A stretch of 64,000 nt of DNA from an uncultured Saprospiraceae bacterium (GTDB lineage Bacteria; Bacteroidota; Bacteroidia; Chitinophagales; Saprospiraceae). Shown one piece after another: positions 14,756-49,421 of this stretch. Position numbers and translations under genes: made by a program. Within the stretch, counting starts at the first letter, position 1. Each line of letters starts with the position of its first letter. The notes beneath the pieces were generated by a model, which saw nothing but the letters and a program-made list of their open reading frames with translations, was not told the origin of the DNA and did not search any database. The stretch lies in the NCBI GenBank assembly GCA_938003955.1, contig CALKXE010000002.1:1-64000 (forward strand). Reading direction: 5' to 3'.

Positions 14756-16459
14756 CTACCCGTTTTTCTTTAGATCATTTACAGCATGTTCTACTGCTCG
14801 AGCTGTTAATGCCATATAAGTCAATGATGGATTTACACAAGCCGCACTTGTCATTGCAGCTCCATCAGTAACATATACATTGGTCGCTGCATGTACTTGA
14901 TTATTTCCATTCAGTACAGATGTCTTAGGATCTCTACCCATTCTCGCAGTCCCCATTTCGTGAATTCCAAGACCTGGATTACAACCACTATCGTATTCTT
15001 CCACATCCTTGAGTCCGGCTCTTTCTAACATTTCAGCTGCGGCCGACATCATTTCTTTTCTCATCGCATATTCATTGTCTTTCCACTCTGCATCCATTGT
15101 AAGTGTAGGGAGACCATGTATGTCTTTTACATCTTCATTTAAGTAGATACGGTTTTCATGGTATGGCAGACATTCTCCAAATCCCATCAATCCCATAGAC
15201 CAATCTCCTGGACTATTTGTGATTGCATTCTTATAATCAGCTCCAAAATCAGCTTCAGCAACATTCTGCCACCATCCTGCTCTAGATCCACCTCCCTGAT
15301 AACCAAAACCTCTCAGATAATCTTTTCGTTTTGTTTTATCATTTAAATTTTGAAATCTAGGAACATAAATACCATTTGGTCTACGCCCTTTATAGTATTG
15401 ATCAGCAAACTTCTCAGACTTTCCACTTGCGCCTAACTTGAAGTGATGATCCATTACATTGTGGCCTAACTCACCACTGTCATTTCCAAAACCATTCGGA
15501 AACCGCTCTGACTTACTATTCATCATGATCCAAGTAGATCCGAAAGATGATGCGCATAGGAAAATTACTTTTGCAAAATATTCCTTGATCTCTCCTGATT
15601 CTGCATCTTTAATTCTTACGCCTTTTGCTTTTTGCGTTTTATCATCATAGATCAATTCCATTACGATAGACCATGGTCGTATCGTTAGATTCCCCGTAGC
15701 TTCTGCCGCGGGAAGCGTTGATGAATTACTACTAAAGTATGCACCATAAGGACAACCTCTCATACATCTATTCCTAGATTGACATGAACCTCTGGTTCCT
15801 ATAGGCTCAGTAAGATTAGCAGCTCTGCCGATCATCATCATACGATCATTGTAATTTTCCTTTATCCGTTCTGCTACTTCTTTTTCTATACAGTTAAGCT
15901 CCATTGGTTTTTGGAATATTCCATCAGGTAGATGAGGCAATCCAGCTTTCCTTCCACTTACACCAATAAACTTTTCTACCTTATCATACCAAGGTGCTAT
16001 ATCTTTATATCTAATAGGCCAATCTACAGCAACACCCTCTTTAGCATTGGCTTCAAAATCAAGATCACTCCATCTATATGATTGTCTACCCCATAGAAGT
16101 GAACGACCTCCTACTTGATAAGACCTGATCCAATCGAATGGTTTCTCTTCCGTATATGGATGCTCTGTATCTTTTGGCCATTGATGAATATATGCCCTGT
16201 TAGTCGTATATCCAGTACGATTATTCTTTTCATAATCCTTAAGCTCTTCTTTGGTTAGTTTCCCCCTATTTTTCATTTCCCAATCATCTAGATTGGCAGT
16301 AGGATAATCACCATGTTTGACCATACGTCCTCTTTCGAGTACCATCGTCTTCATGCCTTTTTCGCATAGCTCTTTGGCAGCCCAGCCACCACTAATACCT
16401 GAACCAACGACAATTGCATCATAGGTTACCTCATCTTCTCCATTAGTGTTAAAATACAT
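14756..16459 (-). CDS. GMC family FAD-dependent sugar oxidoreductase (glucoside 3-dehydrogenase-like)
   Basis: A flavoprotein of 567 residues. The FAD dinucleotide motif GSGISGG is at residues 19-25, and the C-terminal GMC signatures include GIHEMGTARMG and ACVNPSLTYMALTARAVEHA, the latter carrying the Asn and following His region near the active site. The RGCPYGAYF segment with its cysteines is typical of the branch that works with a gluconate_2-dh3 subunit. Members include glucoside 3-dehydrogenases and gluconate/sorbitol dehydrogenases that pass electrons to a membrane acceptor. It has no signal peptide of its own; export with the Tat-signal partner encoded next is inferred. The upstream isomerase-like gene supports carbohydrate oxidation, but the substrate is not known. 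Confidence 0.92.
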   Translation of the reverse strand: MYFNTNGEDEVTYDAIVVGSGISGGWAAKELCEKGMKTMVLERGRMVKHGDYPTANLDDWEMKNRGKLTKEELKDYEKNNRTGYTTNRAYIHQWPKDTEHPYTEEKPFDWIRSYQVGGRSLLWGRQSYRWSDLDFEANAKEGVAVDWPIRYKDIAPWYDKVEKFIGVSGRKAGLPHLPDGIFQKPMELNCIEKEVAERIKENYNDRMMMIGRAANLTEPIGTRGSCQSRNRCMRGCPYGAYFSSNSSTLPAAEATGNLTIRPWSIVMELIYDDKTQKAKGVRIKDAESGEIKEYFAKVIFLCASSFGSTWIMMNSKSERFPNGFGNDSGELGHNVMDHHFKLGASGKSEKFADQYYKGRRPNGIYVPRFQNLNDKTKRKDYLRGFGYQGGGSRAGWWQNVAEADFGADYKNAITNSPGDWSMGLMGFGECLPYHENRIYLNEDVKDIHGLPTLTMDAEWKDNEYAMRKEMMSAAAEMLERAGLKDVEEYDSGCNPGLGIHEMGTARMGRDPKTSVLNGNNQVHAATNVYVTDGAAMTSAACVNPSLTYMALTARAVEHAVNDLKKNG

Positions 16460-16602
16460 ATCTATTTAAGGTTTTTGCAAGTAAAAGAAGCATGATGCTA
16501 CTGGTACTTATATTTTATATTTACTTTAATAAAGCTGTGAAAGCCATATTGTATATTTTTCGAAATCTACTTATTTTATGTCACTTAAGTATCTCCAACT
16601 TG
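16460..16602. other. Upstream region of the GMC gene
   Basis: About 140 AT-rich bases between the GMC start codon and the 92-bp repeats. The promoter of the GMC operon is expected here, but no perfect TAnnTTTG box is visible on the minus strand. An apparent 63-codon plus-strand frame runs into the repeat and is not supported. Confidence 0.4.
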
Positions 16603-16990
16603 CCCCATGAACATTTTCATCTCAAGTCACACTCAAAATCTTCGGAAGTTAAAGTTCATAGAAGATTATTTATGCATAATTAAAATAAATAGTGCCCCAT
16701 GAACATTTTTATATCTAAGGCAACACCCAAACTTCAGAAATTAAAGTTCATGCAAAATTTGTTATACATAATCCTTTAGATATCCCCCATGAACATTTTC
16801 ATCTCAAGTCACACTCAAAATCTTCGGAAGTTAAAGTTCATAGAAGATTATTTATGCATAATTAAAATAAATAGTGCCCCATGAACATTTTCATATCTAA
16901 GGCAACACCCAAACTTCAGAAATTAAAGTTCATAGAAGATTATTTATGCATAATTAAAATAAATAGTGCCACATGAACATTTTCATATAT
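16603..16990. repeat. 92-bp tandem repeat, 4.2 copies, organised as a 182-bp duplicated pair
   Basis: Units start at 16603, 16695, 16785, 16877 and a partial at 16969 (spacings 92, 90, 92, 92), each beginning CCCCATGAACATTTT (CCACATGAAC in the last). There are two subtypes: units 1 and 3 read TCTCAAGTCACACTC, units 2 and 4 read TATCTAAGGCAACACC. Units 1+2 and 3+4 are therefore a duplicated pair, almost identical for about 150 bases. ATGAAC near the start and GTTCAT near the middle of each unit are inverted, so each unit can form a hairpin. The last partial unit contains the stop codon of the isomerase-like gene. Confidence 0.95.
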
Positions 16991-17861
16991 CACATATCTT
17001 AACTCCTTCTCTTAGTGACTCCAATGGATCTTGACGCGTAGGGATAAACTCCTGAGCTACATACCCATCAAACCCGCCTTCATGGATTGCTCGCATTATG
17101 GCTTTATAGTTTAGTTCTTGCGTTTCATTAATTTCATTCCTGCCTGGTACTCCGCCTGTATGAAAGTGAGAAATATAAGTTTTATTCTTTTTGATCGTAT
17201 CAATCACATTACCTTCCATGACCTGCATATGATAGATGTCGTACAATAGTTTAAATTCAGTGGACCCAAGTTTACGAGCAAGATTAACACCCCACTCCGT
17301 ATGATCGCACATATAATCTACATGTCCACCACTTTTACTATTTAGTAATTCCATTACTATTTTCACATTGTACCTCTCTGCAATTTTCATAATTGGATCT
17401 AGACCAACTGCACAGTTTTCTAATCCTAGTTCGTCAGACATTCCATTCCTATTTCCTGAGAAGCATATGATCTGTGAAATACCCTTATCGGCAGCTCTTG
17501 GAATTAGATCAGTATAGTCCGCTAATAACTTTGCATGATTATTCAGATCATTAAATCCTTTTTCTATTCCTAGTTCACTCCCGTTTGAAATAGCACAAGT
17601 AAGTCCACGCTTTATCATTATATCCCATTCATTAGGACTAAGCAGTTCAATGGATTTCATTCCTAGCTCTTGAGCTGTCTCAGCAAGTTGCTCCAAAGGT
17701 ATCTTAGAGTAACACCATCTGCATGCAGAGTGCTTTACCTTTCCTTTTAATGAAAAAGGTACTTCGACAACCGGCGTATCTTTAGGAGAACAGGAAGTAG
17801 ATGCTACAGCAATCGCAGAAGCCGCTAAAACTGAGTTCTTTATTAATTTACGTCTTTTCAA
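16983..17861 (-). CDS. Tat-exported hydroxypyruvate isomerase-like TIM-barrel protein
   Basis: A sugar phosphate isomerase/epimerase-family (AP endonuclease 2 TIM barrel) protein of 292 residues starting at TTG. The N-terminus MKRRKLIKN is a twin-arginine signal, and ASTSC (Cys24) could be a lipobox. HFHTGGVPGRNEINETQELNY resembles the conserved segment of hydroxypyruvate isomerases, and metal-binding Glu/His residues appear in VMELLNS, LYDIYHMQ and AQEFIP. Exported relatives are common in Bacteroidota next to GMC dehydrogenases and are thought to act on oxidised sugars. The reaction here is unproven. The stop codon lies within the flanking 92-bp repeat, so the C-terminal codons may have been remodelled by it. 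Confidence 0.87.
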   Translation of the reverse strand: MKRRKLIKNSVLAASAIAVASTSCSPKDTPVVEVPFSLKGKVKHSACRWCYSKIPLEQLAETAQELGMKSIELLSPNEWDIMIKRGLTCAISNGSELGIEKGFNDLNNHAKLLADYTDLIPRAADKGISQIICFSGNRNGMSDELGLENCAVGLDPIMKIAERYNVKIVMELLNSKSGGHVDYMCDHTEWGVNLARKLGSTEFKLLYDIYHMQVMEGNVIDTIKKNKTYISHFHTGGVPGRNEINETQELNYKAIMRAIHEGGFDGYVAQEFIPTRQDPLESLREGVKICDI

Positions 17862-27599: not shown

Positions 27600-27908
27600 A
27601 CCAGTCAATGATGTGCTTGCTCACCCAACTCTATTGGCCTCGGTATCAAGTTCCTGTTTAATTTATCCTGAGCTTTCCGAAGGATTAGAACCGACTTTTG
27701 TTGTTGTTAACGCATGAGTTCTTATCAATTCATCCATATCCAGAATATGGAATCGAGAAGCAGAAAAACAGCATAGTTCCGACCTGCTTTCTTCAGACCA
27801 TGGGACACTCCAAAGGCCCTTGAATCTTACTAACATTCCGAGCCGTCAAACTAAGGGTCTTGCACCCTCTAAAACATATCTTGCAGGATAGCTGTCCATG
27901 CTGGGCAC
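27600..27908 (-). ncRNA. Possible degraded 5' fragment of a group II intron
   Basis: Read on the minus strand, the segment starts GTGCCCAGCATGG at 27908, resembling the 5' end of many bacterial group II introns. It continues with the short hairpin GAGGGTGCAAGACCCTT and GGTCTGAAGAAAGCAGG, which recall domain I of such introns. There is no reverse transcriptase gene and no domain V or 3' end; it stops at the preceding gene. Its first base directly follows CTCAAAGA of a TGTC repeat unit. Identification is by motif memory and could be wrong; the segment is in any case non-coding on both strands. Confidence 0.4.
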
Positions 27909-28295
27909 TCTTTGAGATCTCAGACATATCGGTTTTTGTAATAGTGTCTGCACATCTACAAGGTGTCTGATACTTTCTTGGATATCAGCTGAAACTATTA
28001 ATGTGCAGTCAACTAATAAATGTCAGATACTCTTTTAGATGTCAGACATATCGGTTTTTGCAATAGTGTCTGCACACCTACAAGGTGTCTGACACTTTCT
28101 CGGATATTAGCAGAAACTATTAATATGCCGTCAACTAATAAATGTCAGACACTCTTTGAGATCTCAGACATATCGGTTTTTGCAATAGTGTCTGCACACC
28201 TACAAGATGTCTGACACTTTCTAGTGTATGCAGATACTAATACAGTGCCCTATAATAAATGTCAGACACTCTTTGAGATGTCAGACATATCGGCA
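27907..28295. repeat. TGTC dispersed repeat, tandem array A (about 120-bp unit, 3+ copies)
   Basis: ACTCTTTGAGAT or close variants recur at 27907, 28029, 28151 and 28268 (periods 122, 122 and 117). Each unit holds four related 9-mers of the form TGTCWGACA in two conserved blocks: AATAAATGTCAGACACTC...GATGTCAGACAT, and GTGTCTGCACACCT-ACAAGG-TGTCTGACAC, which is an imperfect palindrome. Between the blocks the sequence varies. The same unit, reversed, makes up the array at 49073-49421. A spurious 64-codon reading frame runs through it. Confidence 0.93.
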
Positions 28296-49072: not shown

Positions 49073-49421
49073 ATGTCTGACATCTCAAAGAGTGTCTGAC
49101 ATTTATTTGTTTTGAATCCGATAATCTGTCTGTGGATCCATGCAAGTGTCAGACACCTGTTAGGTGTGCAGACACTAGTGTTAATCCGAAATGTCTGACA
49201 TCTCAAAGAGTGTCTGACATTTATTTGTCCAGAATCCGATAGTCTGTCTGTGGATCCTTTTAAGTGTCAGACACCTGTTAGGTGTCTGACACTAGTGTTA
49301 ATCCGACATGTCTGACATCTCAAAGAATGACTGACATTTATTTGTCCAGAATCCGTTAGTCTGTCTGTGGATCCATGTAAGCGTCAGACACCTGATTGGT
49401 GTGCAGACACTGGTGATAAAA
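49073..49421. repeat. TGTC dispersed repeat, tandem array B (about 118-bp unit, 2.9 copies)
   Basis: ATGTCTGACATCTCAAAGAR begins units at 49073, 49191 and 49308 (periods 118 and 117). The reverse complement of the unit matches array A at 27.9-28.3 kb in both conserved blocks; the segment between the blocks (GGATCCACAGACAGACTATC in reversed orientation) is unrelated to that of array A. It lies directly upstream of the sterol-desaturase gene and encodes only a spurious 64-codon frame. Confidence 0.93.

Follow-up and report, generated by a model that had tools for sequence, protein, structure and literature searches.

Intergenic minisatellites and VNTR loci are a known general kind of repeat in bacteria, and VNTR loci are defined by variation in their copy number. 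BrickBuilt of Porphyromonas gingivalis is a minisatellite located within a MITE, with a 23-nt unit and 19 copies in one genome, and its leader and tail have inverted ends (PMC4596501). Two further papers provide general context on bacterial intergenic minisatellites and VNTR loci (PMC3899988, PMC12817950).

The array considered here is found in an uncultured Saprospiraceae bacterium, within a window of 64,000 nt, i.e., the whole stretch of DNA that was analysed (contig CALKXE010000002.1, positions 1 to 64,000). Like bacterial minisatellites and VNTR loci, it consists of head-to-tail, non-coding, near-identical copies at one place. In contrast to them, it is a mosaic with one divergent module. 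It shares with BrickBuilt the nature of an intergenic tandem repeat with small inverted motifs; it differs from BrickBuilt by its 92-bp unit, its occurrence at one place, and the lack of bounding inverted repeats. The array is an ordinary, young, local tandem repeat. We are confident that it represents a lineage-specific intergenic tandem repeat of the minisatellite kind, most likely without a selected function. Its importance is small, as local tandem repeats in spacers are already a known kind.

Structure of the array

Tandem Repeats Finder (TRF) returned one row of period 92 with 4.2 copies (score 530, 16601-16988) and a second of period 182 with 1.9 copies (score 655, 16603-16954). No TRF row was obtained in any of 200 order-1 Markov resamples of 16401-17100. 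The head-to-tail copies exceed chance and place the array in the class of minisatellite-like tandem arrays. It is composed of four full units of 92, 90, 92, and 92 bp (16604-16969), followed by the 17-bp start of a fifth (16970-16986); no strand is assigned to the units. Each unit is built from two modules, B of 56 bp and the smaller A of 34-36 bp. Unit 1 (16604-16695, 92 bp) combines a second-type B module with module A, and unit 3 (16786-16877, 92 bp) is identical to it over all 92 bp. Unit 2 (16696-16785, 90 bp) joins a first-type B module to a divergent module A', while unit 4 (16878-16969, 92 bp) joins a first-type B module to module A.

The comparison of units and modules bears out the two alternating subtypes described in the original prediction. 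The B modules show no difference between units 1 and 3 (56 of 56 positions) and a single one between units 2 and 4 (55 of 56), whereas 48-49 of 58 columns match between the two types. Units 1, 3, and 4 have identical A modules, and these match A' of unit 2 in no more than 23 of 38 columns. The near-identity of the two unit pairs over about 150 bp was also recovered. When the pairs were compared without gaps, 18 differences were counted over 182 positions, with one in the first 149 positions (16603-16751) and 17 in the last 33 (16752-16784).

A recent 182-bp duplication had been proposed to account for this pattern. Recent copying inside the array holds, given the identity of units 1 and 3, but the proposal is too simple, as the pairs diverge over their last 33 positions. 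A single recent duplication of 182 bp would copy both modules alike, and therefore exchange between units or a longer history would be needed. Replication slippage or unequal recombination may have generated the tandem copies from a segment of about 92 bp next to the stop codon of the neighbouring isomerase-like gene. The mosaic of identical and divergent modules suggests that the two modules were mixed through exchange between units, which would make the locus a small example of such exchange in a young array. The array lengthens the spacer between the two co-oriented genes. Copy number may differ among strains; if it does, the array could serve as a strain marker.

The inverted motif ATGAAC...GTTCAT, which had been placed at the ends of each unit, is indeed present in all four full units. 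It spans 53 bp, however, and brackets an inner segment rather than the 92-bp unit. The four occurrences descend from a single ancestral feature and do not count as independent observations.

Neighbouring genes and the stop codon

The array is located between two genes of the minus strand, as originally described. The first encodes a xylose isomerase-like TIM barrel protein of 292 aa (16983-17861, PF01261), for which the ORF list gives a TTG start. The second, downstream of the array, encodes a GMC oxidoreductase (14756-16459, PF00732, PF05199). The isomerase-like gene ends in a TGA stop codon (minus strand, 16983-16985) that falls inside the 17-bp partial unit, and the reported overlap of the last unit with this codon is correct. 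The array had further been considered to supply the stop codon and to shape the C-terminus of the protein. This role was rejected after comparison with 22 related isomerase loci, i.e., all those returned at E <= 1e-40, which come from 21 other genomes (L061 is a second, distant locus of genome G017). In 19 of the 22, translation stops right after the position that aligns with the final residue of the present protein, although the array is absent, so the protein end is independent of the array. As for the remaining loci, L050 and L054 are two residues longer and L055 is one residue shorter. A repeat touching a stop codon need not shift the end of a protein.

The gene order varies among these related loci. 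The isomerase gene precedes the GMC gene in nine (L040-L045, L055-L057) and follows it in four (L047, L051, L058, L059); no GMC match was found within about 1.5 kb on each side in the other nine. Three other members of the genus returned by the search (L040-L042) have kept the isomerase-then-GMC order. Calculated from the locus coordinates, the spacer between the two genes measures 523 nt here versus 125, 239, and 66 nt in these three loci, in which TRF found no tandem repeat. Tandem repeats of other kinds than the present array were detected by TRF in three of the 22 loci (L048, L049, L060). Those of L048 and L060 are upstream of the gene, as is one in L049. Locus L049 also has an array of 8-bp period with 14.9 copies (L049:2441-2559), about 150 nt beyond the stop codon of the isomerase gene at that locus.

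The whole spacers of four relatives were compared with the array in eight comparisons, and no clear similarity was found. The closest results were those of G003 in the gene sense, with 15 of 300 resamples reaching the same level, and of G002 in antisense, with 30 of 300. The G002 spacer contains a weak, AT-rich match of 25 nt to module A (80%, E 0.055) on the opposite strand. This match counts against the favoured reading, as part of the unit could be older.

Search for related sequences

In its own draft genome (5.24 Mb, 304 contigs, 94.44% completeness), the array was found at one place only at E <= 0.001; at E <= 1, two further weak matches to it appeared. The original prediction had called for a search for dispersed copies and held that finding no others in the genome, along with no copy-number variation in any strain, would argue for a local accident. 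None was found in the draft genome at E <= 0.001, which by that measure argues for a local accident.

Short matches apart, the array was not found in 59 relatives or in 395 genomes drawn from the order (best two candidates at most per genome). These two sets overlap, and each species is represented by one genome in the collection. Short matches at E <= 1 occur in at least 48 of the 59 relatives, the own genome excluded (best 11 candidates at most per genome). At E <= 0.001, they occur in at least one of the 59 relatives (G014, 36 bp) and at least six of the 395 genomes of the order. TRF was run on the seven loci with matches at E <= 0.001 (L010, L100-L105) and on a weaker pair (L011, L012); its only rows were doublets of 22 bp in L011 and of 21 bp in L105. 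The short matches in relatives are probably chance matches in AT-rich DNA. A search of 84,980 species genomes with the 18-bp core brought up 11 stretches, each with a single match, from diverse bacteria, among them a Bacteroidales MAG and a Flavobacterium. By our own estimate, which assumes equal base frequencies, about 7.5 matches to an 18-base sequence would be expected by chance in 257 Gb. In viral contigs, four stretches match a 17-bp core.

Alternative explanations

The number or order of the units could be wrong in the assembly. The genome is a draft of many contigs, and the longest exact repeat inside the array, 107 bp, can trouble short-read assembly. The units nonetheless differ at recognisable places, so some array is present and the exact number and order alone are at risk; an assembly artefact is regarded as very unlikely. 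Still less credit is given to a mobile or dispersed element, be it a MITE, a REP, or a BrickBuilt-like minisatellite carried by a MITE. Such an element would be in keeping with the short inverted motifs of every full unit, with three Y1 transposase matches in the genome, and with a different, dispersed repeat family that forms arrays within the same window. Against it stands the single genomic place at E <= 0.001, and searches with short motifs brought up no dispersed copies either. The 18-bp core has five further genomic sites, all with three mismatches, versus three in a backward control, and the pattern ATGAACN{35,45}GTTCAT has two sites outside the array versus ten in the backward control. 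Terminal inverted repeats around the whole element, as expected of a MITE, were not found: none of the longest 25 of 28 inverted pairs bounds the array. They connect positions in one unit or in different units, or pair an AT-rich flank with module A.

The repeated hairpins could also act as a regulatory spacer in an isomerase-GMC messenger, where the number of copies would tune the expression of GMC or the decay of the mRNA. The two genes share a strand and occur in this order in the nine related loci mentioned above. A 406-nt region of the minus strand folds with a z-score of -2.7 against dinucleotide shuffles, of which one in 100 was as good, and two promoter-like sites lie on the minus strand between the array and the GMC gene. 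Repeated inverted motifs are expected to fold well jointly, however, and the 406-nt fold is therefore not taken as evidence of selection. Compared with mononucleotide shuffles, the fold of a single unit is hardly better on either strand (z 0.0 to -1.2), and five hairpin sites range from -0.5 to -2.4, three of them at -1.8 to -2.4. No terminator-like site was found, promoter-like sites number two versus a shuffle mean of 3.9, and a search of the whole window with 4227 Rfam families at gathering score gave no match to a known structured RNA. Moreover, the array was found in no other genome searched. A regulatory spacer is considered unlikely. The more specific proposal of a young, expanding set of hairpins that starts at the gene's stop codon, adjusts the downstream GMC oxidoreductase through its copy number, and keeps its two alternating subtypes through unit exchange is more doubtful again. 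Nothing found here shows the array to have an effect, and the minisatellite-like array is probably neutral.

Other tandem repeats in the genome

The window and 20 further stretches of the same genome, 444.7 kb altogether, were scanned with TRF, and rows of period >= 30 were obtained at ten places. Half of these places, two each in L080 and L091 and one in L097, are fully enclosed by an open frame of 100 codons or more. The remaining five are outside such frames: the present array, counted there save for three bases at its edge, the two window arrays of the dispersed family, L092:17418-17553, and L098:7921-8194. Non-coding arrays are therefore not exceptional in this genome. The array at L098:7921-8194 has a 130-bp unit in 2.1 copies with 97% matches and lies between two convergent ORFs. 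The one at L092:17418-17553, on the window's own contig, has a 48-bp unit in 2.9 copies and is located shortly 5' of an ATG. The dispersed family, rich in TGTCTGACA/TGTCAGACA, forms intergenic arrays at 27906-28293 and 49073-49419, with units of about 122 and 117 bp, respectively. It is REP-like in look, in a genome with the Y1 transposase matches noted above, and its array at 49073-49419 has whole or partial matches at E <= 0.001 on 12 further contigs of the genome.
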